From Lewinella cohaerens DSM 23179 (GTDB lineage Bacteria; Bacteroidota; Bacteroidia; Chitinophagales; Saprospiraceae), in contig NZ_KB903531.1 of NCBI RefSeq assembly GCF_000379805.1, forward strand, positions 353,130 through 400,958: a stretch of 47,829 bases of DNA, in the 5' to 3' direction. Below the pieces are notes generated by a model. It was not told the origin of the DNA and searched no databases. It saw only the letters and a list, made by a program, of their open reading frames with translations. Made by a program: the position numbers and the translations under genes. Shown in pieces: positions 28,204-43,990 of this stretch (positions are counted from its first letter, which is position 1; every line of letters starts with the position of its first letter).

Positions 28204-28219
28204 AATTGGTCAACCAATA
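28204..28219. promoter_or_regulatory. FadR-type operator O1 before regulator 1
   Basis: ATTGGTCAACCAAT palindrome (28205-28218), 28 bases before the regulator 1 start; it matches the sites at 29167, 32979 and 43229. Position inside the gene's leader suggests autorepression. Confidence 0.75.
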
Positions 28220-28246
28220 ATCCTGGTTTAAAAACTATAATCTCTT

Positions 28247-28957
28247 ATGCTTGAAAATTTCAGTGAAATCCGTGTTGAAACCCCTGTTGATAAGATTATC
28301 AAGCAAATTCGTGCATTAATCACGTCAGGACAGCTTGCCTCTGGGGATCGTTTACCTGCAGAGCGAAAGCTTGCAGAGAAACTAGGTGTAAGTCGATCAA
28401 ACGTTCGCGAAGCTATCCAAAAACTTGAGTTCTACGGTATTCTTAAAACGCTGCCCCAGAGTGGCACCGTAGTAGCAGGTATGGGGATCACAGCACTAGA
28501 AGGGCTTATCACTGATGTTTTGAAACTAGAAAAAAGTGATTTCGCTTCCTTGGTTGAAACCAGGGTTATTCTGGAGGTAAGCGCTGCGAAAATCGCTGCG
28601 GAGCGCAGAACACAGGAAGATATCATTGAGCTGAAGAAAGCATTAGTTGCTTACGAAAAAACAATTCGTTCTGGTGCATTAGCGGTAGAAGAAGACTTAC
28701 TCTTCCATCTAAAAATTGCAGAAGCCAGTAAGAACGCGGTTTTAAAATCACTAATGCTGATTATTACCCCCGACATCGTCAATAACTTTATCCAATATAA
28801 GGTATGCGATGATCAATCAGAATTGAAAGCCTACCACCAGCACGAGCAGATTCTGGAACATATCATTAATAAAGATAGCGAGGCTGCTGCCGAAGCTATG
28901 CGAGCGCATCTTCAGGAAGTTTCAGCCTTCAGCAAGTCGAAGAACATTCTAGGATAA
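28247..28957 (+). CDS. FadR-subfamily GntR regulator 1 of the alginate locus
   Basis: 236 residues. Winged helix (about 10-78): GDRLPAERKLAEKLGVSR, SNVREAIQKLEFYGILKTL and a wing at PQSGTVVAG. The FCD effector domain (about 95-225) has the metal-site pattern: Asp150 and His154 in DLLFHLKIAEAS, then His199 and His221. FCD regulators bind carboxylated sugars or acids, so an alginate breakdown product such as DEH or KDG is a sensible effector (inference). It is a close paralogue of the regulator at 43286, roughly 70% identical by eye without gaps. It stands alone, with its own operator. Confidence 0.9.
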   Translation: MLENFSEIRVETPVDKIIKQIRALITSGQLASGDRLPAERKLAEKLGVSRSNVREAIQKLEFYGILKTLPQSGTVVAGMGITALEGLITDVLKLEKSDFASLVETRVILEVSAAKIAAERRTQEDIIELKKALVAYEKTIRSGALAVEEDLLFHLKIAEASKNAVLKSLMLIITPDIVNNFIQYKVCDDQSELKAYHQHEQILEHIINKDSEAAAEAMRAHLQEVSAFSKSKNILG

Positions 28958-29453
28958 ATTAGAGCTTGTTTCTGAAGTTAAATCACCACAAATACATTCA
29001 AGCCTGAATTGCAGTAAAGCAGCATAAAGAATGGTCTCCTAGTGACCGATCCTAAATTGACTGCTACGCTCAAAGTCATGATTTTTTCAACTTTTGCTCC
29101 GCGACCGGTACTTTATTAAAAGTAGAAAATCGTCAAAAAATTTGGTAGTTCAAATTCTTCACTCTAAATTGGTCGACCAATTGATGGTTGGCCAAATTTT
29201 CTGCTGTTTAAGATCCAGGTATTTAATTGAAAGGTAAAGAAAAAGGTCAAGCAAAATTTGCATTAGAAGGCCACCAGGTACTGCTTCATTACATCAGAAA
29301 TGAAAATTCTGAAACAGCGGATTGAAGAGCACTTCAGTGGATACATTACTACAACACGCTAAACGAACAGTACTGGTTTCAAAAAACGTAAACAGTACTA
29401 AAAATACAACTTTAATAATTTACCAAACTTTTTTAATAAAAAACGTAACTGAA
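28958..29453. other. Gene-free gap of about 500 bases with one operator
   Basis: Between regulator 1 and the PKD lipoprotein. It holds the double palindrome at 29167-29195 and a long downstream leader of about 250 bases. A frame open from 29322 upstream of the lipoprotein ATG is not convincing coding sequence. Confidence 0.7.
29167..29195. promoter_or_regulatory. FadR-type operator O2 before the PKD lipoprotein
   Basis: A perfect 16-bp palindrome AATTGGTCGACCAATT (29167-29182) followed at once by TGGTTGGCCAAA, a second related half (TTGGCCAA, 29188-29195). The tandem layout matches the operator at 43229. Confidence 0.8.
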
Positions 29454-30509
29454 ATGGAAAGTTTCTTAACTAAAATAAATAAAAACATCATTCTAATGAT
29501 GTCCTTATTTTTAGCGTTTACTTTAATCACCTCTTGTGGAGACGATGACGAAATGATAGTGCCAGACCTATCAACCGTTGTTGCCAGTTTCACCGCACAG
29601 GTTGATGCCGACAATTCTTTGACCTATGATTTCACAAACAACTCTGTAGTAAATGGAATCACGGATACTAGTTTTGATTCATCATGGGACTTTGGTGGCG
29701 ACGGGACTTCAACTGATGAGAATCCTACCCATACCTTTTCTGGTGAGGGTACTTATACCGTGACATTGACTGTAACCGCTTCCGATGGAGTAGTAGCTAC
29801 GACAACTGAAACAGTAGAAGTTACTGCACCTAAGAACAGATATGCTATTATTACCGATATGACGGATAGTGATACTGGTGAGCTTAGATATGCACCGATG
29901 GATTCTATCCGGAACGGAAGAATTACTTTTATGTACCGATTAACTGAAGGTCCTGCAATGGATATTCAGGATGGCTTTATCAACGTTTCAGGTAATTCCA
30001 CAACTGGTGATTTTGCAATGGTCGAAGTAAGATTGAAAGACAATGCACCACATGAGTTCCGTGAAGGAGCTTCCGATGCGACTATTGCTGCTGCTGCTGC
30101 TAATTTCCCTACGGGAGCGCCTGACGTTTGGGTTCCTGTAGAGATAAGTTGGTCTGCTGATGGCACTAATTACCCAACTTATAGCCTTACAATCGATGGT
30201 GTAACTATAATCACTGATGCGGTAAGTACTACTAACGGTGGTGTTGATGATGAAGCTCCGCATTTAGAGGCTGTCAAAGACGGTGCTGCTAATTTCCAAT
30301 GGAAATACGCTGGAAATTCAGCTATTTCTGACGGTATGTTTCATGTTGATGATATCGTAATATATTCTTCAGATTCAGGAAGTGAAGTAGTGGCTTTCGA
30401 AGATAACTTCCAAGGAAGAGTAAAAGGTGATAATCTAAATCCTGATGTTAACCTTGATTCTCCTTATCATGTAAACAGTGCAGACGCTACAGTAGGAGAA
30501 GATGAATAA
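29454..30509 (+). CDS. PKD-domain lipoprotein of the alginate locus
   Basis: 351 residues from the ATG at 29454, chosen because it opens a lipoprotein signal (lipobox LITSC, Cys28); the frame is open upstream to 29322. A PKD domain (about 43-123) shows SWDFGGDGTSTDENPTHTF and GTYTVTLTVTASDGV. The remaining 225 residues (from KNRYAIITDM) match no family I recognise; the ending HVDDIVIYSSD..FEDNFQGR recalls laminin-G-like or alginate-lyase-like carbohydrate-binding folds. By position and operator it is likely a surface glycan-binding lipoprotein doing the job of SusE/F, which are absent. It is transcribed as its own unit, with an operator and terminator. Confidence 0.8.
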   Translation: MESFLTKINKNIILMMSLFLAFTLITSCGDDDEMIVPDLSTVVASFTAQVDADNSLTYDFTNNSVVNGITDTSFDSSWDFGGDGTSTDENPTHTFSGEGTYTVTLTVTASDGVVATTTETVEVTAPKNRYAIITDMTDSDTGELRYAPMDSIRNGRITFMYRLTEGPAMDIQDGFINVSGNSTTGDFAMVEVRLKDNAPHEFREGASDATIAAAAANFPTGAPDVWVPVEISWSADGTNYPTYSLTIDGVTIITDAVSTTNGGVDDEAPHLEAVKDGAANFQWKYAGNSAISDGMFHVDDIVIYSSDSGSEVVAFEDNFQGRVKGDNLNPDVNLDSPYHVNSADATVGEDE

Positions 30510-30564
30510 ACTGTTAATGTCTCAATGAGATATTAGGAGTGGAACATAAGTTTCCTTAATCAAG

Positions 30565-30597
30565 AAGAGGAGTGTCTATTCAGGCGCTCCTCTTTTT
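30565..30597 (+). terminator. Rho-independent terminator of the PKD lipoprotein
   Basis: AAGAGGAGTG pairs with CGCTCCTCTT and continues into a run of five T. It separates the lipoprotein from the beta-helix gene. Confidence 0.85.
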
Positions 30598-30657
30598 GGT
30601 TTTGGCAATACATTACGAGCATGTTTGGTACTCACTCCAGTTGAAAATTAACGCTTT

Positions 30658-32841
30658 ATGAAACGATTATTATTTCTGATTTCTAGCCTTATTGGGGCTT
30701 ATTTAGCTCATGGGCAAAATTCTTCTCAATTGGTCTATTTAGATCAAGGTGAATTAACTTATGTTCCCTTCTCTATGACGGGGCAATCAAATGAGGTCAA
30801 CACCATTCCGGATTTTTCTTACGCTGGCTATATGGGGGGAGGTGTTTCACTTCCTACTGATATTCCAATTGAGGCTATCGTCACCCCAGAGGAAGGAGAG
30901 GATGCTCGAAGAATTCAGGCTGCGATAGACCTCGTCGCAGCACTCGAACCTGATCAAAATGGATTTAGAGGTGTAGTATTAATTAAAGCAGGGCATTATA
31001 GCTTGGAAAACATTTTGACAGTCAGAGCGTCTGGTGTCGTTTTAAGAGGGGAAGGGCAGGGATTAAACGGAACTGTGCTCCATTCAAATCCGCGAGTTGA
31101 CCATAGTATTATCAATATTATGGGGCCAAGTGGTACCATTATTATTAAAGATGAACAATCGGAACAAGCTATTACAACCAATTATGTACCGGTAGGAGCC
31201 TATTCCTTTGAAGTTGAAGATGCATCGGGTTTTGAGGTTGGAGGAAAAATTGTGGTTACCAGAACACCAAATCAAGTCTGGATTGATGAATTAGGTATGG
31301 ATCAGGAAACACTCTGTGCGGGAGAAAGTGGTTGTAACGGCTGGACACCTGATGGCTATACCATTGATCATGAACGAATGATCACCGCCATATCTGGCAA
31401 TACTATTTCCATCAATATTCCCATAGTTGATGTCATGGAAGAGGTGTATGGCGGCGGGTCTATTTCGAAAATCCAATCATCAAGGCGCATCAGCCATTGC
31501 GGTGTTGAAAACATGAGAATCCAATCCTTTTACGATGGTGATCTGGATGAATCTCATGCCTGGACTGCGGTTAGACTAAAAGATTCAGAAAACTGTTGGG
31601 TAAAACAAGTAACCGGTCAATACCTTGCTTATAGTACCGTAAATATTGAAAGTGCCAATTTTACAACGGTTCAGGATTGCGCATATATTGACCCAAAATC
31701 TCGAGTTTCTGGGGGCAGGAGGTATCCTTTTGCTATCCAAGAGGGATTAGGAAATCTATTTCAACGATGTTACGCAATTAATGGACGACACGATTTTGTG
31801 ACAGGATCCAGAGTCACCGGACCCAATGTTTTTTTGGATGGGCTGGCAGAAAGCGCTAACTCAGATATTGGCCCTCACCATAGATGGGCTACGGGGACCC
31901 TTTTTGACAACATTCGTGGAGGTTCTACCAGGGTTTGGAACCGGGGTAGCTCGGGTAGTGGACATGGATGGTCAGGTGCACAAACTATGTTTTGGAATAT
32001 GGACTCCTATAATGGAGAGTTTCGGGTAGACAGTCCACAGGGTTCAATGAATTGGGGTATCGGCTGTATTGGTACAAATCAAACAGGCGACGGATATTGG
32101 GAAAGTTGGGGTACTAACGTGCATCCCAGGAGTCTTTATATCCAGCAATTAGAAGATCGCTTAGGCGTGAGTGCTCTTGATAATGTTTTAATACCTGAGC
32201 AGCAATCAGGAGAAATATATGATTTGCTAGCTACGTGGGGTGGAGATGGAAATTTTTCTGATAGAGGGTTTCATGGGGAGATACCCAATGTGAGTTTTAT
32301 AAATCCAACGAGTGCTATTGATGTGTCCATTTGGGAGGGGGGTGATATAGAAGTTGATGCGTCGGATAGTGATGGAACAATTCAAAATGTGAAATTGCTC
32401 ATCAATGGAGAACCCGTTGGGACGGATAATGAAGCGCCCTACATATTCACTAATTTAACTGCTACCATTCAAGACCTTTCTCATGAAATTCATTACCTAC
32501 AAGCTATTGTTACGGACAATGATGCGAATACAAATTTTACCAGAATAGCTATTATAGGAGGAGATCCGCCACCGCCTAATGAGGAGGAAGAAGAAAATGA
32601 GCACTCACAAATACGAGTTTACCCCAACCCAACACAAAACAGGGAGCTAACTATTGAAATGAAAGAGGTGGGGTCCTATGCCGTCAGCATTCTTGATTTG
32701 TACGGTCGGAAAGTAGATCATTTTATATTTGAAGGGGTGGAGTACCGGGGCAATTTGCAGCAAAATCTGCCTGACGGAATTTATATCCTGGAAATTCAAA
32801 CTGAGGAAATGATCCTCTTTACAATGAAGCTTAGTTTATAG
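30658..32841 (+). CDS. Secreted parallel beta-helix protein with T9SS domain, candidate polysaccharide lyase of unassigned family
   Basis: 727 residues. Signal peptide 1-19 (ends AYLAHG); catalytic-like beta-helix about 75-540, starting with EDARRIQAAIDLVAAL and VVLRGEGQGLNGTVL, a pectate-lyase-superfamily style opening; Ig-like domain about 545-635; an acidic linker (NEEEEENEH); and a T9SS sorting domain about 650-727. Polar clusters that may form an active site are GGRRYPFAIQEG (352-363), NGRHDFVTG (375-383) and GPHHRWATG (405-413). I recognise the overall type from uncharacterised proteins but no numbered PL or GH family. Its place among PL7, PL6 and PL17 genes suggests alginate or another uronan as substrate (inference). 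No operator lies directly before it. Confidence 0.75.
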   Translation: MKRLLFLISSLIGAYLAHGQNSSQLVYLDQGELTYVPFSMTGQSNEVNTIPDFSYAGYMGGGVSLPTDIPIEAIVTPEEGEDARRIQAAIDLVAALEPDQNGFRGVVLIKAGHYSLENILTVRASGVVLRGEGQGLNGTVLHSNPRVDHSIINIMGPSGTIIIKDEQSEQAITTNYVPVGAYSFEVEDASGFEVGGKIVVTRTPNQVWIDELGMDQETLCAGESGCNGWTPDGYTIDHERMITAISGNTISINIPIVDVMEEVYGGGSISKIQSSRRISHCGVENMRIQSFYDGDLDESHAWTAVRLKDSENCWVKQVTGQYLAYSTVNIESANFTTVQDCAYIDPKSRVSGGRRYPFAIQEGLGNLFQRCYAINGRHDFVTGSRVTGPNVFLDGLAESANSDIGPHHRWATGTLFDNIRGGSTRVWNRGSSGSGHGWSGAQTMFWNMDSYNGEFRVDSPQGSMNWGIGCIGTNQTGDGYWESWGTNVHPRSLYIQQLEDRLGVSALDNVLIPEQQSGEIYDLLATWGGDGNFSDRGFHGEIPNVSFINPTSAIDVSIWEGGDIEVDASDSDGTIQNVKLLINGEPVGTDNEAPYIFTNLTATIQDLSHEIHYLQAIVTDNDANTNFTRIAIIGGDPPPPNEEEEENEHSQIRVYPNPTQNRELTIEMKEVGSYAVSILDLYGRKVDHFIFEGVEYRGNLQQNLPDGIYILEIQTEEMILFTMKLSL

Positions 32842-32978
32842 TGATTTGACTTGAAGACACCAAAAAGGTAAATCAAAAATCCAGCATTTTTAGTGGAAGC
32901 ACTGCGTGTTGAAGCAATATTCTATTTTTTAATAAAAAAATAGTCAAGATTATTTGGTCAGGAAATTAGATGGCCTTA

Positions 32979-32994
32979 AATTGGTCAACCAATT
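32979..32994. promoter_or_regulatory. FadR-type operator O3 before susC
   Basis: AATTGGTCAACCAATT (32979-32994), with AAGGTGGTTATAC following in the position of the second half found at the other sites. A TACATTTA box at 33007-33014 could be the -7 element, which would place the operator over the -33 region. An additional lone half, TTGGTCA, is at 32953. The start codon of susC is 84 bases downstream. Confidence 0.8.
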
Positions 32995-33078
32995 TGAAGG
33001 TGGTTATACATTTAGCTGCTTTGGCTATGCATATGACCCAAAAAGTGCATTTTTAATGGATTTTAATAACCTTATTCT

Positions 33079-36000
33079 ATGAAGTATTTTTTACAAAAAA
33101 TTCTTGGGTGTACCAGCAAGGTGATGAGCCTCCTGGTTATATTCATTTGCTTGGTGGCGGCAACGAGCGCATCCGCGCAGGAAACCATCAATGGTAACAT
33201 CACCGATGAGAGTGGTGAACCTTTAATAGGAGTTACCATACTAGTGCAAGGAACTGCTACTGGTACGGTAACTGATATCGACGGAAATTTTAGCTTAGCG
33301 GTTGACTCTGACGCGGTGTTACAGGTTTCGTACACTGGATATGAACCACAAACTATTCCCGTTAACGGGCAAACCACCTTCAACATCACGCTACTGGTAA
33401 ATTCAACGGTATTGGACGAAGTTGTCGTAATCGGCTATGGAAGTGTTAAAAAGAGTGATGTTACGGGTAGTGTATCTTCTGTAAAAGCGGACGAAATACA
33501 AGCTTTTCCCGTATTAAATGCAGCACAGGCACTTCAAGGTCGTGCAGCTGGAGTAGCTGTTCAAACACAGAATGGAGGTGAGCCTGGTGCAGGTATTTCT
33601 ATTCGAGTTCGAGGTAGTTCATCACTTAATGCAAGCAGTGACCCACTTGTGGTGGTTGATGGTTTTGTTGGAGCTGCTTTTCCGCAGCAAAATGACATTG
33701 AATCTATAGAGATATTAAAAGATGCCTCTGCTACTGCAATTTATGGATCAAGAGGATCAGGAGGTGTTATCCTGGTAACTACTAAGAAAGGTAAAGCCGG
33801 GAAAGCGGTCGTAGAGCTTAATTCCACTTATTCTTCTCAGGAGACGACCAATAGGTTGGACTTGCTGGATGCAAACGGATTTGCTCAATATCAAAACATG
33901 ATCCGTAATAATGCCGGAGATGCTCCGTATGCTCAAGGACAGGCTAATACAGACTGGCAAGACGAAATTTATAGAGCTGGAAGCACACAAAATCACCAGT
34001 TGGCAGTTTCTGGAGGTAGTGATAATGTAAACTATTATTTTTCTGGTACTTATTTTGACCAAGAAGGAATCATTGTTAACTCTGACTTCAACAAAGTTCA
34101 GTTTTTAGCAAATGTAGATGCAAAAGTTGGTGAGCGATTAAAGATTGGAATAAACAGTATTGCTAGTAGAAGCGAGCAAAATGGTGTTTCAACTCAATCA
34201 ACTGGTAGTGATAATATTGGTTCTGTGAACGGAGGAGGAGATGATGTAGTCGCTTTGGCATTCAGATTTGCTCCCGATGTTGGCAGGTTTAATGACGCAG
34301 GAGATTTCTCTCAAAATACAGTGGGAGATGACATAGAAAATCCGTGGGCTGTGGCAACACAGATAACAAACGAAACCAAAACGGATAATTCAAGAACAAA
34401 CGTTTATGCCGATTTTGAGATTTTGAAAGGCCTGAATTTCAAAACTACTTTAGGCTACAGAACGCAAAATAGTACGGAAGGTTATTTTAAGCCACAGACG
34501 TTTGTGCTTTCTGCTGGTGGAGCGTTTTTAGAATCCGTAAAAAGAACAAGGCTACTAAATGAAAATTACCTGACGTATACTTCAGTAATTGGGCAAGGTA
34601 ATTTAACAGCAACAGCCGGACACTCCTATCAAAAAAATACCACCGAAGGGTTTGAAGCAGGTGCTCGAGGGTTATTGACTGATGCGTTCTCATGGTATAA
34701 CCTAGAAGCTGGGCAGATAGATCAACGCACCATTGATTCTCGTTTCTCTGAATCGGAAATCGAGTCCGTTTTTGGGCGCGTCAATTTTGAATGGGCAGGC
34801 AAATATTTGCTGACTTCTACCGTCCGTAGAGATGGAGCATCCAACTTTGCAGCAAATAATAAATATGCAATCTTCCCTTCTGTCGCAGTTGGATGGAAGG
34901 TTTCAAGAGAAGATTTTTTACTCGACAACCCGACACTATCTCTCCTCAAATTAAGAGCTAGTTATGGTCTAACGGGTAATCAGGCCATTGGCCCTTATGA
35001 GTCACTTTCTACGTATCGTGTTCAGCCACCTACAGTGGTTGGTGGAGCTTTTGGTGTAGATCTAGCTCGTGAAGCAAACCCAGACTTGAAGTGGGAAACT
35101 TCCTATCAGACAAATATCGGTGTGGATATTGGTTTATTTGAAAATAGAATCACGATTAGTGCAGACTATTACAACATCGACACGGAAGACCTTTTAGCGG
35201 TAGATAGAGCTTCTAATTTTTACTTAGGAACATCTGATTTAGATGTTCTCAGAAATGTTGGTTCTATTAATAATCGTGGAGTTGAGTTTTCTTTGACGTC
35301 AACCAATATTAACAAGAAAGATTTTAGATGGACATCTAATTTCAACATTGCAAGGAACAGAAATGAAATAGTGGAGCTGTCTGGCGGAACCGAGATTTTA
35401 GGCAGTGGAGCTCCGGGTTACTTCGCTGGTGGTAATACTTACATATTACGAGAAGGTGAGGCGCTTGGTCTCTTTTGGGGATTAGATTACCAAGGTGTAT
35501 ACCAAGGTGGTGCTCTTCCCGAAGGTACAGCTGTAAAAGACGTGTCTTTGGATGGAGATGGAAACGCAATCCCTGGAGAGCCTTTGTTCGCTGAAGTAGC
35601 AGATGAAGAGGGCAATTTTGATGGCGTAATAAACGACAATGACCGGCAGATTATAGGAGACCCAAATCCTGATTTTACGTTTGGTTTCACCAATACCTTA
35701 ACTTACAAGAGTTTTGACTTAAATATCTTTTTCCAGGGGTCTGTAGGTGGAGATATCTACAACCTGACAGCTGTTCAATTATATAATGGTGACAGTAATG
35801 GCTTAACGGATGTATTAAATTCGTGGACGCCAACCAATACAGATACCGATATACCTCGAGCGGCAATTAGAGGAAGAGAACGTTCATCTCGTTTTGTGGA
35901 AAGCGGAAGTTATGTAAGACTTAAGAATGTAGCATTAGGCTATAGCTTGCCAAATGGTATGTTGGATAAAGTTGGCGTCGGTTCTGCAAGGTTATCTGTT

Positions 36001-36171
36001 AGTGCTCAGAATCTACTAACCATTACTAACTATTCTGGATTAGATCCTGAAGTGAGTTACTTTGGTAGTGGTGGCGAAAGCAGTGGAGATGATAATGTAA
36101 TTCAAGGGCATGATTTTGGTAATTACCCTAATCTAAGGTCAATTACGCTTGCTCTCAACTTGAAATTCTAA
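33079..36171 (+). CDS. susC: SusC/RagA-type TonB-linked outer-membrane transporter
   Basis: 1030 residues. Signal peptide to about 34 (..LVAATSASA), CarboxypepD-regulatory-like domain about 36-115 (INGNITDESGEPLIGVTIL), then the SusC hallmark VLDEVVVIGYGSVKKSDVTG, plug with ILKDASATAIYGSRGSGGV, and a long beta barrel ending SITLALNLKF. It imports oligosaccharides through the outer membrane together with the SusD gene nine bases downstream; context says alginate oligomers. Arginine is very often AGA here, unlike the neighbouring housekeeping genes. Confidence 0.96.
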   Translation: MKYFLQKILGCTSKVMSLLVIFICLVAATSASAQETINGNITDESGEPLIGVTILVQGTATGTVTDIDGNFSLAVDSDAVLQVSYTGYEPQTIPVNGQTTFNITLLVNSTVLDEVVVIGYGSVKKSDVTGSVSSVKADEIQAFPVLNAAQALQGRAAGVAVQTQNGGEPGAGISIRVRGSSSLNASSDPLVVVDGFVGAAFPQQNDIESIEILKDASATAIYGSRGSGGVILVTTKKGKAGKAVVELNSTYSSQETTNRLDLLDANGFAQYQNMIRNNAGDAPYAQGQANTDWQDEIYRAGSTQNHQLAVSGGSDNVNYYFSGTYFDQEGIIVNSDFNKVQFLANVDAKVGERLKIGINSIASRSEQNGVSTQSTGSDNIGSVNGGGDDVVALAFRFAPDVGRFNDAGDFSQNTVGDDIENPWAVATQITNETKTDNSRTNVYADFEILKGLNFKTTLGYRTQNSTEGYFKPQTFVLSAGGAFLESVKRTRLLNENYLTYTSVIGQGNLTATAGHSYQKNTTEGFEAGARGLLTDAFSWYNLEAGQIDQRTIDSRFSESEIESVFGRVNFEWAGKYLLTSTVRRDGASNFAANNKYAIFPSVAVGWKVSREDFLLDNPTLSLLKLRASYGLTGNQAIGPYESLSTYRVQPPTVVGGAFGVDLAREANPDLKWETSYQTNIGVDIGLFENRITISADYYNIDTEDLLAVDRASNFYLGTSDLDVLRNVGSINNRGVEFSLTSTNINKKDFRWTSNFNIARNRNEIVELSGGTEILGSGAPGYFAGGNTYILREGEALGLFWGLDYQGVYQGGALPEGTAVKDVSLDGDGNAIPGEPLFAEVADEEGNFDGVINDNDRQIIGDPNPDFTFGFTNTLTYKSFDLNIFFQGSVGGDIYNLTAVQLYNGDSNGLTDVLNSWTPTNTDTDIPRAAIRGRERSSRFVESGSYVRLKNVALGYSLPNGMLDKVGVGSARLSVSAQNLLTITNYSGLDPEVSYFGSGGESSGDDNVIQGHDFGNYPNLRSITLALNLKF

Positions 36172-36180
36172 AGAACTAAA

Positions 36181-37740
36181 ATGATGATTAAAATGAAAGC
36201 ATATAAATATTTATTCGCCTTGATACTTGGTTTATCAATGGTGGCATGTTCGGACTTAGAAGAGAACGCAATAAGCGAATTGGAGCCCGATGAGCGTGTG
36301 GTCGATTTGCAAACAGTAGAGACTACCATTGCTGGTGCTTATGGTAATTTATCGGCTAGAGCATTTTTGTCTAGAGGATTGGGCTTACCGATTATGCTGC
36401 GTTCAGATATGGTAGCTATAGGAAACCCTACCACTGCGGCTGAAAGAATTGAACACGATATATTTACTGTCTCGGCAACTAATCCACTGATTTTAAATCC
36501 GTCTAATCCTGAAAGAAGTTTCTGGCCTCGGCTCTATCAGATGGTGAGAGGTGCCAATGAGACCTTGCGAGAGGTAGCTGCTCTTGAAGAACAAAACCCT
36601 GGGGTGAGTGAAGAAATAGCAGGACGAGCGCGATTCATTAGAGCTTATGCCTACTATCATTTGGTCAGACTTTTTGGAGACATTCCATATTTGGACGAGA
36701 AAATTACTACTGCTGAAGCATCAGTGGCACCAAGAACACCTGTAGAAACTGTATATGAGAACATCATTGCAGATTTTGAATATGCCAAGGAATGGTTACC
36801 AGACTCACGAGCTAACAGAGCCCTTCCTGGCAAAGCAGCCGCTAGTGCTTTTCTCGCTAGTGTTTACCTAACCAGAGGAGAATATCAACTGGCTTACAAT
36901 GAAGCTACTGATATCATCAATAAGGCAGGAACCTACAACTTGGCATTGGAGCCGGACTATCGGAATATCTTTCATGCAGAGAATACCAATTTTTCTCTAG
37001 AGCCAATTTTTGTAATAGACTTTGTTGCAACCAATATTAATGATGAATCCAGAGATTATCTAGCTGCTTTCACTGGTTTCTTTGGTCAAGCAACTTATTA
37101 CCCTTCAGGTGGATGGTCTGTTATGGTGCCAGCTCAAAAAGTATATGATACTTGGGAAGATGGAGACTACAGAAAGGACGTCTGTTTTGATGATGAAGCA
37201 TTAGATAACAGTGGTAATCTAATTCCTTTTACTGCTTTTTCTAGCTTAGATGGTCGTAATACGAATCGTCCACATATTTCTAAGTACACAGCAATGGCGG
37301 GCGACTTGCCACAAGCGAATACTAGCGGAAGAGATTCGGAATCCAATTACCAGTTGATGCGCTATGCCGAAGTGCTATTAATCGCTGCGGAGGCTGCTGC
37401 TGAACTTGGTAATACGGCAGAGGCCGACCAATGGATTAATATGATAAGAGAAAGAGCGAGAAATGGAGATGGAACTGGTGCTCCTAGTGCTGCACCTGCC
37501 AACATCTCGGGAGCGACTGTTGAAGATGTGCTAGAGGAAAGAAGATTAGAGCTTGCCTTTGAGCATAAAAGATGGTACGATATCGTCAGAAGAAAAATGG
37601 GAAATGAGGTGTTCGGACCAAATGGTTTTGAAGCCGAACTTCCAACACGAAACTTTGATCCATCTAGGGACTATTTGCTGCCAATTCCTCCATTGGAAAT
37701 TACAAACAACCCTAATTTGACCCAAAACCCCGGGTACTAG
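36181..37740 (+). CDS. susD: SusD/RagB-type surface glycan-binding lipoprotein
   Basis: 519 residues with lipobox MVAC (Cys23). TPR-like helices typical of SusD: IAGRARFIRAYAYYHLVRLF with GDIPYLDE, KAAASAFLASVYLTRGEY, and the C-terminal RYAEVLLIAAEAAAELG, ..LEERRLELAFEHKRWYDIVR and LLPIPPLEI. It caps the SusC transporter and captures the oligosaccharide. The second Met at 36193 is a possible start as well. It should be co-transcribed with susC from operator O3. Confidence 0.96.
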   Translation: MMIKMKAYKYLFALILGLSMVACSDLEENAISELEPDERVVDLQTVETTIAGAYGNLSARAFLSRGLGLPIMLRSDMVAIGNPTTAAERIEHDIFTVSATNPLILNPSNPERSFWPRLYQMVRGANETLREVAALEEQNPGVSEEIAGRARFIRAYAYYHLVRLFGDIPYLDEKITTAEASVAPRTPVETVYENIIADFEYAKEWLPDSRANRALPGKAAASAFLASVYLTRGEYQLAYNEATDIINKAGTYNLALEPDYRNIFHAENTNFSLEPIFVIDFVATNINDESRDYLAAFTGFFGQATYYPSGGWSVMVPAQKVYDTWEDGDYRKDVCFDDEALDNSGNLIPFTAFSSLDGRNTNRPHISKYTAMAGDLPQANTSGRDSESNYQLMRYAEVLLIAAEAAAELGNTAEADQWINMIRERARNGDGTGAPSAAPANISGATVEDVLEERRLELAFEHKRWYDIVRRKMGNEVFGPNGFEAELPTRNFDPSRDYLLPIPPLEITNNPNLTQNPGY

Positions 37741-37756
37741 TCAGGGCATTATTGAG

Positions 37757-37883
37757 AAGATTCAAGGTTCCTCCTTCTTTAGAGAACAGCACGAAAATAA
37801 TCCAGATAATTATCGGAATTATTTTCTGCGAAATACTCTAGGAAACAGCACCAAAATAAGTGCTTGGAGGAAGCTTGAATCTT
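37757..37883. repeat. Nested inverted-repeat element, copy C, between susD and PL7
   Basis: Outer arms AAGATTCAAGGTTCCTCC (37757-37774) and GGAGGAAGCTTGAATCTT (37866-37883) are inverted with one mismatch. Inside is GAGAACAGCACGAAAATAAT..ATTATTTTCTGCGAAATAC (37782-37836), itself a hairpin, followed by a partial second start AGGAAACAGCACCAAAATAAG (37840-37860). The GAACAGCACGAAAA and TTTTCTGCGAAATAC ends match those of copies A and B. Confidence 0.75.
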
Positions 37884-37998
37884 TCCCTAATTATACGGAT
37901 ACTCTTAATGTACCAAACATCCTCTTAGTTGGACATTTTCCATGCTTGGCTTGGATATTTCCTACTCAATACTCTTCGCCCCTTTCAAAAAAATAATT

Positions 37999-40815
37999 AT
38001 GAAAACGTCATTTAGCTGTAACTTTCTAAGTATAAGACAACTTGAATTTTCTTATATTTTACCTTACACTCGATCTGTTTTTCTGCTATTAGTAATGAGT
38101 ATGGTAGTTAGTTCTGCTACGGCACAAGATTTAGATCCCAACCTTCCTCCCGGTGGGAATTTTGATCTTTCTTACTGGAAACTTACCCGTCCAAATCAAC
38201 AAGAACGAGATGCAGAACAACTGGTAGGTGGCTATGAAGTGGATGGTGAATTCTACACCGATCCGGTTACTGGCGCCATGGTATTTTGGTGCCCCAACGA
38301 TGGAGCTACAGGTGGTAGCAGCTATCCAAGGAACGAGTTAAGAGAAATGATTCGTAGACTTGACACCAGCATTCCTACTCAAGGAATAAATAAAAACAAC
38401 TGGGTATTTTCTTCTTCTACGATGGAAAACCAAGAAGCTGCTGGAGGCGTAGACGGCATTATGACTGCCACCGTAGCTGTGGATCATGTGTCTGAAACCT
38501 CTGATGCGAGCTTTAAGGTAGGTCGAACTATCGTTGGGCAAATACACGCCTCCAATGATGAGCCTTGTAGATTGTATTATCGCAAATTGCCAGGGAACAC
38601 CAAGGGGGCTATTTATTTCGCTCATGAACCTACTACTGGCCCTGAACAATGGTACGAAATGATTGGTAGTAGAAGTGATGGTGTACCCGATCCAGTAGAT
38701 GGGATTGCCTTAGGTGAACAGTTTAGCTACGAGATTAAGGTAATTGGCAATCTTCTGACGGTAACCATCATGAGAGAGGGTATGGATGATGTTGTTCAAG
38801 AAGTAGATATGACAGATAGTGGCTTTGCTGATGATTGGATGTACTTCAAAGCAGGAAACTATAACCAAAACAATGCTGGAGATCCCGACGAATATGCGCA
38901 AGTATCTTTCTTTGCTTTAGATGTTACGCACTTTGCCCCTACCCCACCAACCGCCTATCTTGCCCCATCTGATATACCAAGATTTCAACCTTTTCTCGCA
39001 GAATGCAAATTACAAGGTCCTACCAGCTCAACGCTTCGCGACAGAGATGCACTTAATTCTGGCTATACGCATCCCGAGTGGTTCTATGTAGTTGATGGTG
39101 ATAAAATACGGTTCAATCAATCTGGTGATAGCCAACGAACAGAACTCCGGAATGAAACGAATTGGGACCTCAACGACGAGAATCGATCGCTGCACGGAAG
39201 AATTGACATTGTAGAGCAGACTTGTGATCAGGTGACTGTAATGCAGATTCATGATGATGCCAATGCTGGTAGTGGACCTAACAAACCCTTACTGAGAATA
39301 TATAAACACAATAACAAAGTACCTACTAATCATTTGTGGGCGGCAATTAAAACAGACGACGGAGGATCCAACACCACTCATGTGGACCTTGGAGAAGACC
39401 CCGGTGGATATTTTAACTGTGATATTCGATTGGTTGATGGAAATATGATCATAGATTTTGAAGGAGAAGAAAAGGTGAATATGGATGTCTCCTACTGGAC
39501 CTGGCCTAGTTATTGGAAAGCAGGGGTTTACCTTCAGGATGCTGGTGAAGCAACTGCACATTTTGATGAACTATTTGAAGAAGATGGTTCGCCACAAAAC
39601 TATTCCCCTTCTGTCAGTATAACTGATCCTGCCAACGGTACTAATTTCTTACCCGGTAGTGACATCACGATTACCGTTGACGCGGTAGATTCTGATGGTT
39701 CCGTTACAGCGGTAGAGTTTATTGAAGGCGGTGGTAATATACTTGGAGAAGACACTACTGCTCCCTATTCGTTTACCTGGACAAATGTACCTGAGGGAGC
39801 CTATACATTGACAGCCAGAGCTACCGATAATGAAGGAGGGTCAAAGACCTCCTTAAGTACCAATATTACGGTTCAGGTTCCGATAGATGTGACTGGAGTG
39901 GACATGGCTGAGCTTACCGGACCAATTGCTGTTGGGGCTAATCTCCAATTAGAAACACTCGTTTCTCCTGGAGATGCCACCAATCAAAATTTGATTTTTG
40001 AGTCTGACGATACAAGCGTTGCTACAGTAACAGAAAGCGGCTTACTGTCCGCGATTTCCGAGGGGGAGGTGACCATCACAGTAACAACAGTTGCCGGAGG
40101 ATTTACCGATTCGCAAACCTTAGATGTACTCACTCCTTCCGATGACTTCAACTGGGCATTGGGGCAGCCGGTTGTAGGTACCGGTACGCCAGATGGTAAC
40201 AACGATGAAGATAAGCTTGTAGATGATGATACCGGTACGCGTTGGGCTGTATCAGGCTTTCCACAATCTGCAACTGTTGATTTAGAAGGGAATATAAAGA
40301 TAACCCAGACAGAAGTTACCTGCTACCAAGACAGAGCTTATCAATTCATTATTGAAGGTGCTTTAAATGAAGATGGCCCCTTTACCACTATCATAGACAG
40401 ATCAAATAATAATATTCCAGGTACTGCTATTGCGCCTATTATCAATGCTGTAGATAGTATTGAAGCCAGATTCGTAAGAATAACGGTATCGGGTGCAGAT
40501 ATTTATACTGGTCCATGGGTAAGTCTTACGGAATTGAGAGTGTTTGGTGACGGTGAACGGACATTTACAAATGTGACGGAATTAGAGGAAGAAAAAATAC
40601 AAATATCTCCCAACCCTGCCTCATCTATCGTAACAATAGAAGCCGGGGATGAATACGATGCCGTGGTCGTTTATGACGCAACAGGAAGAAGCGTCATCCA
40701 AAAACCGATTAATAAGTTAATAACCCTGGATATAAGTGGACTTCAATCAGGAACTTACTTTATAAAGCTTGAAGGCCGTAACAAGTCCGAAGTTCGTAAG
40801 CTTATAAAACGCTAA
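37999..40815 (+). CDS. Multidomain alginate lyase with two PL7 domains, CBM-like and T9SS domains
   Basis: 938 residues from the ATG at 37999 (the frame is open from 37942); the signal ends near residue 43 (VVSSATAQ). PL7 domain A about 46-313: YPRNELREM (109-117), GQIHA (180-184), YFKAGNYNQN (282-291). PL7 domain B about 327-530: QRTELRNE (379-386), MQIHDD (415-420), YWKAGVYLQD (505-514). Both keep the Arg, Gln-His and Tyr expected of a PL7 active site. Then an Ig-like domain (536-626), a Big_2-type domain (631-711), an F5/8 type C (CBM32-like) domain (715-853) and a T9SS domain (861-938). It cleaves alginate by beta-elimination outside the cell. It is flanked by repeat elements C and B. Confidence 0.93.
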   Translation: MKTSFSCNFLSIRQLEFSYILPYTRSVFLLLVMSMVVSSATAQDLDPNLPPGGNFDLSYWKLTRPNQQERDAEQLVGGYEVDGEFYTDPVTGAMVFWCPNDGATGGSSYPRNELREMIRRLDTSIPTQGINKNNWVFSSSTMENQEAAGGVDGIMTATVAVDHVSETSDASFKVGRTIVGQIHASNDEPCRLYYRKLPGNTKGAIYFAHEPTTGPEQWYEMIGSRSDGVPDPVDGIALGEQFSYEIKVIGNLLTVTIMREGMDDVVQEVDMTDSGFADDWMYFKAGNYNQNNAGDPDEYAQVSFFALDVTHFAPTPPTAYLAPSDIPRFQPFLAECKLQGPTSSTLRDRDALNSGYTHPEWFYVVDGDKIRFNQSGDSQRTELRNETNWDLNDENRSLHGRIDIVEQTCDQVTVMQIHDDANAGSGPNKPLLRIYKHNNKVPTNHLWAAIKTDDGGSNTTHVDLGEDPGGYFNCDIRLVDGNMIIDFEGEEKVNMDVSYWTWPSYWKAGVYLQDAGEATAHFDELFEEDGSPQNYSPSVSITDPANGTNFLPGSDITITVDAVDSDGSVTAVEFIEGGGNILGEDTTAPYSFTWTNVPEGAYTLTARATDNEGGSKTSLSTNITVQVPIDVTGVDMAELTGPIAVGANLQLETLVSPGDATNQNLIFESDDTSVATVTESGLLSAISEGEVTITVTTVAGGFTDSQTLDVLTPSDDFNWALGQPVVGTGTPDGNNDEDKLVDDDTGTRWAVSGFPQSATVDLEGNIKITQTEVTCYQDRAYQFIIEGALNEDGPFTTIIDRSNNNIPGTAIAPIINAVDSIEARFVRITVSGADIYTGPWVSLTELRVFGDGERTFTNVTELEEEKIQISPNPASSIVTIEAGDEYDAVVVYDATGRSVIQKPINKLITLDISGLQSGTYFIKLEGRNKSEVRKLIKR

Positions 40816-40822
40816 ATATTTA

Positions 40823-41018
40823 AGGAACAGCAAGAAAACAAAATACGATTGGCTACGCCGCTACTACGTGGTCGCTTTGCGGCTACTTTGTAGTCTGTTT
40901 TCCATAATAGTTAACTAAATGATTCATTTCAAATGTGTTAACTATTATGGAAAACCTGAAGAGACCTCGAAGAAAGAGCGAAGCTAATCGCATTTTTTAT
41001 TTTATGTGCAATACTAAG
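40823..41018 (+). repeat. Nested inverted-repeat element, copy B, between PL7 and PL6 genes
   Basis: Begins AGGAACAGCAAGAAAACAAAAT and ends TGTGCAATACTAAG. Outer arms AAAATACGATTGGCT / AGCTAATCGCATTTT and a perfect inner pair GTTTTCCATAATAGTTAAC / GTTAACTATTATGGAAAAC (about 40896-40914 and 40936-40954) nest around a 21-base core. It aligns with copy A (opposite strand) but has about 45 extra bases, including CTACTACGTGG..CTACTTTGTAG, on the left. It fills essentially the whole intergenic gap. Confidence 0.85.
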
Positions 41019-41023
41019 TCCCT

Positions 41024-42958
41024 ATGAAACTTCCTCTTCTGTTTTCGTTTTTATTCGTTAGTGTTCTGGTAAGTGCCCAAAACCGCTATGATGTTTCGTC
41101 TCAATCAGAGTTCAATACCGCCCAAGACCTGGCAAACGCAGGGGATACAATAGCATGGGTGCAGGGTACGTATTCCGATACTCGTATGGATATTGATAAA
41201 GATGGATTAATAGTAACCGCAATACCGTACGGAACTGTTTTATTTACAGGAGTATCTAGAGTTGTCATCAATGGTGATGATGTCACTTTTTCTGGCTTTC
41301 AATATATTGGAGGTTTTGTCCCCACTTTAGATGTAATTAGAGTATATGGAAGTGATGTGTTGATTACGCAGGTAAACATTCAAAATTACACGAGCTTCAA
41401 GTATCTCAGGGTGTATGAAGAATCCAGAAGAACGACCATTAGCTATTGTAATTTCGAGAATCGACTCAACTTAGATGATCAGAATATACTCTCCATATTA
41501 GTAGATGATGAACCCGGCTATCACAAGATTCAATATTGTTCCTTTAAAAATTTCGATGGTATAGGCAATGACCAAGGTATTGAACCAATCAGAATTGGGG
41601 TCAGTTCACAATGGGATTTAGATAGTCGTACACTTGTGGAGTATTGCTACTTTACGCAGTGCAATGGAGATGGTGAAATTATCTCGCACAAGTCCAGACA
41701 AAATGTTTATCGCTATAATACCTTTGAAAACAACCCGGTAGCTGAACTTGTACTAAGACATGGTGATGAAGGAATCGTCTACGGCAATTTTTTTCTGAAT
41801 AATATGGGAGGAATTAGAATACGAGAGGGTTCTAATCATTTCATTTACAACAACTATTTCGAGGGACAAGATCGAAGAACAATTTACTTACAAAACGACC
41901 CGTCTGACCCTTTATCTGATATTCACATTTATCATAACACGATTATCGATTCGGAGGAATTCAGACTGGGAGGTAATGGAAATAACCCGCCCACCAATGT
42001 TATCATTGCTAATAATGTTTTTACAGATCCAAAAACGCAATTATTTGACGAAGACACTGGAAATGAAACATGGATTGGCAATCTTTCCTTTGGTACCCTA
42101 GGGATTGACTCCCCATCATCTGGGCTTTCTAATACTGACCCTGAGCTTGTTGAAAACATCGAGGGCTTTTTTCAGCCAGCATCCAACAGCCCGGTTATTG
42201 CCGCAGCTAGTGCTGGCTACCCAGTAGTTCCTCTTTATCCAGGCATGGATTATGATAATGAAATATTGTTTGATTTGATGATAGAACCGAGACCGGTATC
42301 AATAGCCGATCGAGCGATTGGTGCTTCTGAATTTTCATCAACAGTCAATGTCCAGCCACATGCTACTGAAATGAATACAGGTCCTTCCTACTTATTTGAC
42401 AACCTGGTCAATTATATTGCGGCCAATGTATCACAGCTTTATATTGGAGGAGAAGGAGAGAATAGGTCTATTGTGATTTCCAGTAATATCGATTGGACCA
42501 TAACGAGTAGTACAAGCTGGATATCAACCAACCTTTCATCTGGATCGGGAGATGCCCAACTCACTGTAACGATTGATGCAAACGAAGAGAACGTTAATAG
42601 ATCGGGAACATTGACAATTACTGGTGGCACACAATCGGTGACTATTAATGTGTTTCAAGATCCCGGTGGACCGGTTGGTGTGCAGGAAAACCTTAAAAGT
42701 GAAGTACTTTTATTTCCAAACCCAACAGATGGCAGCGTAAGGTTGAGTAATTTACCATCAGGAATCTACAGTTCTCATTTAGAGCTAGTTGATCTGGCCG
42801 GAAGAAGTCTTTTCTCAAAGGAGTATCGAATAGATAATAATGAATTGTTGGTTGATTTGGACAAATTGGTGCCTGGTACTTATATATTGAATATAAAATT
42901 CATGCTTCAAAATGGCACTATTTACAGGGAGTTGACCCGTAGGGTGGTGAGAAATTAA
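41024..42958 (+). CDS. PL6 family alginate lyase with BACON and T9SS domains
   Basis: 644 residues. Signal peptide 1-18 (FVSVLVSA). Parallel beta-helix of PL6 (chondroitinase B/alginate lyase type) about 20-400, with NGDGEIISHKS (Lys223 as Bronsted base) and ELVLRHG (Arg245), the two catalytic residues of the family, and metal-site residues in NGDGE. A BACON-type beta domain (about 455-550, SSNIDWTITSSTSWIS) and a T9SS sorting domain (about 562-644) follow. PL6 enzymes act on MG or poly-G alginate, complementing PL7. It follows the dual-PL7 gene across repeat element B. Confidence 0.93.
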   Translation: MKLPLLFSFLFVSVLVSAQNRYDVSSQSEFNTAQDLANAGDTIAWVQGTYSDTRMDIDKDGLIVTAIPYGTVLFTGVSRVVINGDDVTFSGFQYIGGFVPTLDVIRVYGSDVLITQVNIQNYTSFKYLRVYEESRRTTISYCNFENRLNLDDQNILSILVDDEPGYHKIQYCSFKNFDGIGNDQGIEPIRIGVSSQWDLDSRTLVEYCYFTQCNGDGEIISHKSRQNVYRYNTFENNPVAELVLRHGDEGIVYGNFFLNNMGGIRIREGSNHFIYNNYFEGQDRRTIYLQNDPSDPLSDIHIYHNTIIDSEEFRLGGNGNNPPTNVIIANNVFTDPKTQLFDEDTGNETWIGNLSFGTLGIDSPSSGLSNTDPELVENIEGFFQPASNSPVIAAASAGYPVVPLYPGMDYDNEILFDLMIEPRPVSIADRAIGASEFSSTVNVQPHATEMNTGPSYLFDNLVNYIAANVSQLYIGGEGENRSIVISSNIDWTITSSTSWISTNLSSGSGDAQLTVTIDANEENVNRSGTLTITGGTQSVTINVFQDPGGPVGVQENLKSEVLLFPNPTDGSVRLSNLPSGIYSSHLELVDLAGRSLFSKEYRIDNNELLVDLDKLVPGTYILNIKFMLQNGTIYRELTRRVVRN

Positions 42959-43228
42959 TCACACCTTTTTGTTCTCGACAGTTCGGGTAACCAGTATCTT
43001 GGATTTGTATCTCCTATACTAATTGTAGCATTATTTTTCTACCGCTGTACCACAAATAGGCCATACAGGGAATTGCTGCTATTTATTAAGGGGAAGTGCT
43101 TGCTTTATGCTATTTTAGCACATATCACCTGCCTCCGAGCTTATCTTCCATTGCAAATTCAATATCAAGTGTTGTATTTGAGGTCTTCGCACAAAAAAAA
43201 TTTGGCAAATCGGAAATATGACTTATAT

Positions 43229-43257
43229 TTGGTCAACCAATTTATGGTTAACCAATT
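43229..43257. promoter_or_regulatory. FadR-type double operator O4 before regulator 2
   Basis: TTGGTCAACCAA (43229-43240) directly followed by ATGGTTAACCAAT (43244-43256, core GGTTAACC 43246-43253). The pair matches O2 in order and spacing. The regulator start is about 30 bases downstream. Confidence 0.8.
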
Positions 43258-43285: not shown

Positions 43286-43990
43286 ATGTTAGAAAATTTC
43301 AATGAAATCAAGGTAGAATCATCAGTAGATAAGCTTATCAAGCAAATCAAAGAGCTGATTACTACTGGACAACTGACTCCGGGAGATCGCCTACCTGCTG
43401 AGCGAAAGTTGGCAGAACGACTTGGCATCAGTCGTTCAAATGTTAGAGATGCCATACAGAAGCTGGAGTTTTATGGCATACTGAAGACATTACCACAAAG
43501 TGGTACGGTGGTCGCTGGTATTGGAATAACGGCTTTAGAAGGGCTAATTACGGATGTATTAAAATTGGAGAAAAGTGACTTTACTTCTTTAGTGGAAACA
43601 CGAGTTATTCTGGAAACCTCTGCGGCGCACTTTGCAGCAGAGCGCCGCACAAAGGATGACTTAGCAGAAATAAAGAAAACACTAAAAGCATACGAACTCA
43701 AAGTAAAGCAAGGAGAACCTGCCATTGAGGAAGATTTGCTTTTTCACCTAAAAATTGCAGAAGCAAGTAAAAACGTGGTGTTAAAGTCTCTGATGCTGAT
43801 CATAACGCCAGATATCATTAAAAACTTTACTCAATATAAGGTTTGTGATGATGAGACAGAATACAAGGCATTTCATGAGCATCAGCTCGTTCTTAAGCAT
43901 ATTACAGATAAATATAGTCAGGGAGCGGCAGAAGTTATGCGCAAGCATTTACGTGATGTAATAGACTTCAGCCGGTCGACCGTATTTTAA
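43286..43990 (+). CDS. FadR-subfamily GntR regulator 2 of the alginate locus
   Basis: 234 residues, same architecture as the regulator at 28247: winged helix with GDRLPAERKLAERLGISR, wing PQSGTVVAG, and FCD domain with DLLFHLKIAEAS and later His residues. The middle region PQSGTVVAG-IGITALEGLITDV.. is nearly identical between the two; the C-terminal 60 residues have drifted most. It is likely to bind the same palindrome, which lies before both genes. The PL17 gene starts 60 bases later and may share its transcript. Confidence 0.9.
   Translation: MLENFNEIKVESSVDKLIKQIKELITTGQLTPGDRLPAERKLAERLGISRSNVRDAIQKLEFYGILKTLPQSGTVVAGIGITALEGLITDVLKLEKSDFTSLVETRVILETSAAHFAAERRTKDDLAEIKKTLKAYELKVKQGEPAIEEDLLFHLKIAEASKNVVLKSLMLIITPDIIKNFTQYKVCDDETEYKAFHEHQLVLKHITDKYSQGAAEVMRKHLRDVIDFSRSTVF

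Follow-up and report, generated by a model that had tools for sequence, protein, structure and literature searches.

What controls the alginate genes of Lewinella cohaerens DSM 23179, and how far through its genome does that control reach? The question is raised by a stretch of 47,829 nucleotides (NZ_KB903531.1, 353,130-400,958, forward strand), called the window here, with positions counted from its first letter. The window holds an alginate-type polysaccharide utilization locus (PUL) with two genes for GntR-type regulators, together with four exact copies of the palindrome TTGGT-N2-ACCAA. It is very likely that these palindromes are the operators of an alginate repressor regulon of the AusR type, served by GntR proteins of the FadR subfamily. 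Literature searches brought up no study of alginate regulation in the Saprospiraceae and their relatives, and among the papers listed as matches to a text search for the exact motif, none was on this subject by its title.

A preliminary description of this DNA had reported the four palindromes, each upstream of a transcription unit, and both statements are confirmed. The sites, listed without strand, are as follows.

28206..28217: operator O1, TTGGTCAACCAA, single site upstream of regulator 1
29169..29180: operator O2, TTGGTCGACCAA
29184..29195: second copy of O2 at a pitch of 15 base pairs (bp), ATGGTTGGCCAA, two mismatches
32981..32992: operator O3, TTGGTCAACCAA, upstream of susC
43229..43240: operator O4, TTGGTCAACCAA
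43244..43255: second copy of O4 at a pitch of 15 bp, ATGGTTAACCAA, one mismatch

Dinucleotide shuffles of the window contain 0.06 exact palindromes on average, and none of 100 reached four. O1 begins 41 bp before regulator 1, O2 288 bp before the likely start of a PKD-domain lipoprotein (29457), O3 98 bp before susC, and O4 57 bp before regulator 2. The related second half that had been described at three of the sites is a full-length copy at two of them (29184 and 43244); after the sites at 28206 and 32981 there is only a lone TGGT. The seven other intergenic stretches of the locus (before the gene at 30658 and before those for the polysaccharide lyases (PL) of families PL7, PL6 and PL17, the major facilitator superfamily (MFS) transporter, KdgK and KdgA) gave no match with fewer than two mismatches, the best being at 37905 before PL7 with two, in agreement with the earlier remark that no full site precedes the other genes.

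A genome scan had also been called for, and it carries the regulon beyond the locus. Across the assembly (7.3 megabases (Mb) in 89 contigs, with labels such as C2, C14 and C89), the exact palindrome occurs 21 times, against 10 for the same pattern reversed, which served as the control. When a pyrimidine-purine (YR) centre and an A/T flank on one side are also required (TTGGTYRACCAATT), seven places remain, all within six promoters of alginate-type genes, and the reversed control gives none. Four are the operators of the window. The others are a tandem pair at 16 bp (C2:249829/249845), 80-96 bp before the gene for a 783-amino-acid PL6-type protein, and C14:115751, 50 bp before the gene for an 866-amino-acid PL6-type protein, both genes being taken from mechanical starts of open reading frames (ORFs). 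The genome has three PF14592 genes, one in the window locus and these two; because the only two that are unlinked both carry the site, the operator predicts both. The pattern, which led to both of these genes, offers a simple sequence rule for locating alginate genes away from the PUL, and what began as a remark on four sites is now a regulon whose targets are precisely listed across the genome and can be put to the test.

The palindromes left over by this rule were treated as background. Three more YR-centred sites lack the flank and lie inside reading frames. Among the 14 exact palindromes outside alginate promoters, 11 are inside or at the end of mechanical ORFs, and the three outside ORFs (on C6, on C15 and at C68:142907) are not YR-centred. 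That the palindrome is a product of chance is rejected by the window shuffles, by the reversed control in the genome and by the permuted palindromes described below.

The pattern also follows the regulator among relatives. In a survey of 298 genomes of the order, 63 match regulator 1 at 1e-20, and only the 41 that do so at about 1e-57 or better are counted as having the regulator. TTGGTYRACCAATT is present in 36 of these 41 genomes, against 64 of the 257 without the regulator (Fisher 1e-14). For the reversed control the corresponding counts are 8 of 41 and 59 of 257, which puts the 64 genomes with the pattern and without the regulator at about background. Within 30 loci kept for their regulator matches, that of regulator 1 included, an exact palindrome is found no more than 400 bp upstream in 28, and one further locus has a site with one mismatch.

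Specificity was assessed in the best 80 of 419 confirmed regulator matches (1.26 Mb), the clade-A set, mainly from the Saprospiraceae and otherwise from Fulvivirga, Reichenbachiella, Algoriphagus and Echinicola. The N2 palindrome occurs 151 times, in 71 of the 80 loci, and has a YR centre in 130 cases, whereas nine kinds of permuted half-site palindrome occur 0-2 times each and other spacings 1-9 times. A recognised locus gene adjoins 146 of the sites (GntR 128, SusC 14, PL6 12, PL7 4, PKD 2, KdgK 2, some counted twice), and five have none nearby. These loci were picked by their regulator, which biases the GntR share, and many are related metagenome assemblies, which makes the counts non-independent; the permuted controls, taken on the same DNA, are unaffected by the selection.

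The spacing within the palindrome bears on the kind of regulator to be expected. The preliminary description had taken FadR and its TGGTnnnACCA-like sites as the model, which these loci contradict: with three central bases the palindrome occurs once, against 151 times with two. The FadR of Escherichia coli, whose targets are fatty-acid genes, belongs to the same subfamily (GntR helix-turn-helix and alpha-helical C-domain) and differs by its three-base operator spacing. According to the accessible parts of Suvorova 2015 (PMC4494728), operators of the FadR subfamily mostly have three bases between GT and AC, as FadR itself does, and those of UxuR, GntR, PrpR and others have two; its table includes no FadR-subfamily regulator from the Bacteroidetes. 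The window's system resembles UxuR and the other N2-spaced regulators in these two bases and in its TKGT/ACMA boxes, and differs in targets and effectors.

It could be argued from this shared spacing class that a hexuronate regulon of the UxuR/ExuR kind, for pectin or glucuronate, happens to include these genes. Regulator 1 does match NF007588, the model of the Uxu regulator, at 2e-27, but with 96 bits it lies far below the cut-off of 442, and it likewise falls short of NF003444, the model of FadR (3e-11, 43 bits, cut-off 189). The targets encode lyases of types PL6, PL7 and PL17, accompanied by a gene like that of 2-keto-3-deoxygluconate (KDG) kinase and one for 2-keto-3-deoxy-6-phosphogluconate (KDPG) aldolase downstream, and no uxu or pectin gene is among the targets identified, for which no dedicated search was made. 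A hexuronate regulon is consequently a highly improbable description of these sites.

An alginate repressor of the AusR kind fits better, and AusR is the closest described system, in place of the FadR named earlier. The AusR-type alginate regulon was first described in Zobellia. The Zobellia galactanivorans protein AusR (Dudek et al. 2020) is described as a GntR-family regulator that acts on operators occurring singly, in pairs or in threes and that no longer binds them in the presence of alginate metabolites (PMC7874173). Most alginate genes are under its repression, with alyA7 as the exception, the AlyA7 lyase acting as a sentry (PMC8286568), and AusR is duplicated in some Zobellia loci (PMC8073546). 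The likeness, one of described features, takes in a GntR-family repressor, SusD-like and PKD-containing proteins in the alginate system it serves, an operator present in one to three copies, two genes of the system that stand isolated and, as a candidate here, a sentry lyase that escapes control. In the loci studied here, too, a GntR gene lies inside an alginate PUL whose promoters have a common operator, in one to three tandem copies. By analogy with AlyA7, the unlinked PL7 genes on C46 and C68 are candidates for the role of sentry lyase.

Comparable arrangements occur elsewhere. In alginate-type PULs of gut Bacteroides, namely B. eggerthii (PMC11381880, accessible portion) and B. finegoldii, a FadR/GntR regulator stands beside SusC, PL6-type, heparinase II/III family, cupin and MFS genes. 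A 101-kilobase plasmid record of B. finegoldii (L251:11779-11806) has two TTGGT-N2-ACCAA palindromes at 16 bp between the GntR gene and susC; its regulator is only 45% identical, and its position in the tree is poorly resolved. The alginate locus of Vibrio sp. C42 is described, in the part of the report available, as having three gntR genes, two of them induced (PMC13390454).

The L. cohaerens genome has three GntR genes, one at C89:84.8 kb and two in the window.

28247..28957, + strand: regulator 1, GntR N-domain and FCD domain (FadR subfamily), 236 amino acids (PF00392 9e-19, PF07729 2e-24)
43286..43990, + strand: regulator 2, GntR and FCD domains, 74% identical to regulator 1

Both combine a GntR winged helix with an FCD C-domain above the Pfam cut-offs, and the palindrome associated with them by position has TKGT/ACMA boxes. 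The genome scan bears out the earlier assignment of a FadR-subfamily regulon to the locus. Their relatives with solved structures are, by sequence, distant GntR proteins only. In a tree of 156 regulators (205 hits before duplicate removal), they form one group with the single regulator of a genome of the same genus (G173), at a low support of 0.26. The FCD residues D150, H154, H199 and H221 (regulator 1 numbering) are kept in 155, 156, 156 and 156 of the 156 proteins. In FCD proteins, such a residue set binds a metal that helps to hold a carboxylate ligand.

Because regulators 1 and 2 are 74% identical and each adjoins a different gene set, they might have divided targets or respond to different inducers, in which case the four sites would be two look-alike regulons. 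Duplicated regulators do occur on one contig elsewhere (L074/L105, L106/L114, L080/L120). Such a division is nevertheless unlikely, as the winged-helix residues of the two proteins are nearly identical and both promoters have the same site. In addition, G173 has one regulator match, and its sole TTGGTYRACCAATT places are a tandem pair before that gene. One shared repressor regulon is the reading we prefer, in which both of these close paralogues should bind, as dimers, to one operator sequence, TTGGTYRACCAA.

The position of the operators within their promoters suggests how they would act. The Bacteroidota -7 box has the consensus TAnnTTTG, and the window contains the following candidates.

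29141..29144, + strand: candidate -33 element TTTG, 20 bp before a candidate -7 box
29165..29172, + strand: candidate -7 box TAAATTGG, 5/6 of TAnnTTTG, overlapping O2
32953..32956, + strand: candidate -33 element TTTG, 20 bp before a candidate -7 box
32977..32984, + strand: candidate -7 box TAAATTGG, 5/6, overlapping O3
43201..43204, + strand: candidate -33 element TTTG, 19 bp before a candidate -7 box
43224..43231, + strand: candidate -7 box TATATTTG, exact TAnnTTTG, overlapping O4

Thus O3, which had been placed over the -33 region, overlaps the candidate -7 box instead, with TTTG 20 bp upstream of that box. The arrangement reads TTTG-N19-TATATTTG at O4 and TTTG-N20-TAAATTGG, with one mismatch, at O2 and O3. 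A usable upstream stretch was available for 104 regulator promoters of clade A. In 41 of them, the final three letters of an exact TAnnTTTG are at the same time part of the first operator, against 3.3 with shuffled flanks, and 35 of these 41 also have at least three of the four letters of TTTG 18-22 bp upstream. With an operator across a candidate -7 box at three of the window's four promoters, and the same overlap in 41 of the 104 from clade A, the geometry argues for steric repression at this box.

Some FadR-subfamily proteins activate transcription, and the regulators here might be activators or have a dual role, with the tandem site recruiting polymerase instead of blocking it. In some loci, an exact TAnnTTTG does stand apart from the first operator, at -20/-21 (15 cases) or at +22/+38 (14 cases), where the second operator may lie over it, or none. 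We regard activation as very unlikely, both because the first operator atop the -7 box is the commonest layout (41 exact cases, the next single offset having 8) and because AusR is described as a repressor in the accessible parts of its reports (PMC8286568, PMC7874173).

If repression is accepted, a mechanism can be proposed from protein families and gene positions. A bound repressor lying across the candidate -7 box, with a second copy at 15 bp at two promoters, would block RNA polymerase, and since both regulator genes carry an operator, self-repression is expected. The breakdown of alginate would supply an unsaturated monouronate product, either 4-deoxy-L-erythro-5-hexoseulose uronate (DEH) or KDG, and this would bind the FCD domain at the conserved D/H/H/H cluster and cause release of the DNA. 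The cell would then express the SusCD uptake system and the lyases, those from the two unlinked PL6-type genes included. A third, more distant repressor from a second clade would control a separate SusCD locus with a gene for a short-chain dehydrogenase/reductase (SDR), using the same half-site at a pitch of 13 bp.

Several observations weigh against this account. None of the PL7, PL6, PL17, MFS, KdgK and KdgA genes in the locus has its own operator, and their transcription would require read-through from upstream or other regulation. In the stretches read for the unlinked PL7 genes (C46, C68) and for the best KdgF match (C8), no intergenic operator with up to one mismatch was found. The 14-base pattern is absent from 5 of the 41 genomes with the regulator, and 7 of the 113 clade-A regulators lack a core site in the 400 bp upstream (for clade B, 13 of 39; these clade counts exclude L158, L159, L160 and L180, which are long-branch or intermediate). 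O1 has no convincing -7 box beside it, and 63 of the 104 promoters lack a fusion of the exact -7 box with the first operator; tolerating one mismatch brings this figure to 46, but with a shuffled mean of 25.5.

The pitch of the tandem sites separates two groups of regulators. The comparison was made with 24 loci from a family of the class (f75) that is taken, from its gene order, to be the Flavobacteriaceae; its alginate loci of classic arrangement run PL17, SusC, SusD, PKD, PL7, GntR, MFS, SDR, KdgK, KdgA. The regulators of these alginate loci and the third GntR protein of L. cohaerens (C89) form one clade with a support of 1.0, and regulators 1 and 2 fall outside it; within the DNA-binding domain, the clades differ at residues such as those at positions 28, 41, 68 and 78 of regulator 1. 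When neighbouring sites lie less than 31 bp apart, their pitch is 15 or 16 bp in 48 of 52 cases in the 80 clade-A loci (14 in three, 27 in one) and 13 bp in 18 of 19 cases in the f75 loci (the other being 26). No pitch of 13 bp was found in the 80 clade-A loci and none of 14-16 bp in the 24 f75 loci. By clade and by pitch, then, regulators 1 and 2, which are duplicated and whose sites, where tandem, stand 15-16 bp apart, are not orthologues of the f75 regulators.

The sites themselves differ as well. The outer base is T in 317 of 338 half-sites in clade A, against 86 of 134 in f75, where the half-site is often C-flanked, and the centre is YR in 144 of 169 sites in clade A, whereas it is TA, AA or TT in 55 of 67 in f75. 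The eight-letter core TGGT-N2-ACCA occurs 71 times in the f75 loci, whereas its other permutations occur 0-11 times and versions with another spacing 9-19 times, so that the core stands out less sharply than it does in clade A. The 13 bp pitch is also present at L178, L179 and the C89 locus, which belong to the second clade and come from the window's own family; the pitch thus follows the regulator and not the host. A few clade-A promoters from another family of the class, among them L157 and L169 (G614) and L167 (G499), have two palindromes at 22 bp, a third spacing.

Both groups of regulators are present in the L. cohaerens genome, as they are in another genome (G129). In L. cohaerens, the 13 bp tandem pattern (up to two mismatches) occurs only at C89:79723-79773 and, weakly, in the C14 PL6 promoter, with none in the control. 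The C89 array has up to four units before a SusC-like gene, the third and fourth being weak (pairs with two mismatches). It belongs to a separate susCD locus whose SDR gene has, in each of the four f75 alginate loci read, a counterpart with 84-91% identity, and from its position in those loci we infer that the enzyme might be a DEH reductase. The C14 PL6 promoter has a YR-centred core, followed at 13 bp by a degenerate second half, and may answer to both regulator groups. In G173, genes for an SDR, PL6, two PL7 and a cupin (KdgF-like) protein lie in one cluster beside one regulator. This fits a dispersal of the alginate pathway in the L. cohaerens genome, with the C2 PL6 gene retaining its operator, although the reverse history, a gathering in G173, could also have occurred.

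It is possible, at a probability that we would put a little below even, that these are two groups of one alginate repressor family that have kept the half-site and changed the array pitch (15-16 versus 13 bp), and with it the packing geometry of neighbouring dimers, so that one cell reads two insulated channels from one core palindrome by spacing and cooperativity. Several deep supports in the tree are low, the Bacteroides, Flammeovirga, Persicobacter and Shinella proteins are distant, and the window's group may be a true clade or the grade from which the 13 bp clade arose. The regulon itself is of the known AusR kind; what is new is two repressor groups with a common half-site and different pitch, both in one genome. 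They pose the general question of whether the spacing of dimers, rather than the half-site, can separate two paralogous repressors in one cell. A difference in pitch between alginate repressors was the subject of no paper that the literature searches brought up; as these did not cover Dudek et al. 2020 or most subscription papers, no priority is claimed.

The remaining genes of the window locus, with functions assigned from their families and positions, are listed here.

29457..30509, + strand: PKD-domain lipoprotein (PF18911 2e-11), start picked by eye as the ATG before a lipobox-like SC
30658..32841, + strand: 727-amino-acid secreted protein (Big_7, Por_Secre_tail), no operator upstream
33079..36171, + strand: SusC-like TonB-dependent receptor (Plug 6e-18)
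36181..37740, + strand: SusD-like protein (PF07980 1e-40)
37942..40815, + strand: PL7 alginate lyase, two PF08787 stretches
41024..42958, + strand: PL6-type lyase (PF14592)
44050..46308, + strand: oligoalginate lyase-like protein, PL17 type (NF042990 2.8e-203, 677 bits, below the model cut-off of 1400)
46376..47695, + strand: MFS transporter

The PL17-type gene begins 60 bp after regulator 2 and is probably in one transcription unit with it. The pfkB-family gene (KDG-kinase-like) and the KDPG aldolase gene follow the MFS gene directly beyond the window. The 727-amino-acid protein, encoded between the PKD lipoprotein and susC, has a Big_7 domain, a type IX secretion tail and a sub-threshold match to DUF4955, and no catalytic family was found in it. 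A hairpin with a run of T near 30567-30598, in the gap before this gene, was seen by eye only; a terminator scan of 30300-30900 did not list it, and it is not relied on.

A gene for an Nramp-family transporter (PF01566) adjoins alginate genes at L070:7271-8506, L068:10533-11801, L182:12381-13640 and L177:15443-16717, that is, in two loci of the L. cohaerens genome, in the genome of the same genus and in one f75 locus. Alginate binds divalent cations, and this neighbourhood may be more than chance.

Sites were also found on plasmids of distant bacteria. Plasmid p1 of Flammeovirga kamogawensis (L253) has a single TTGGTCAACCAA palindrome at each of 8361 and 13208, the first preceding a cupin gene and the second, to which TATATTTGG is fused, a gene for a TonB receptor within a PL7 cluster. 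On a plasmid of Shinella zoogloeoides (L254:7929), CTGGTTGACCAA lies about 70 bp upstream of a stretch that matches the regulator; this alphaproteobacterial relative is 42% identical and, together with this site, hints at spread between phyla.

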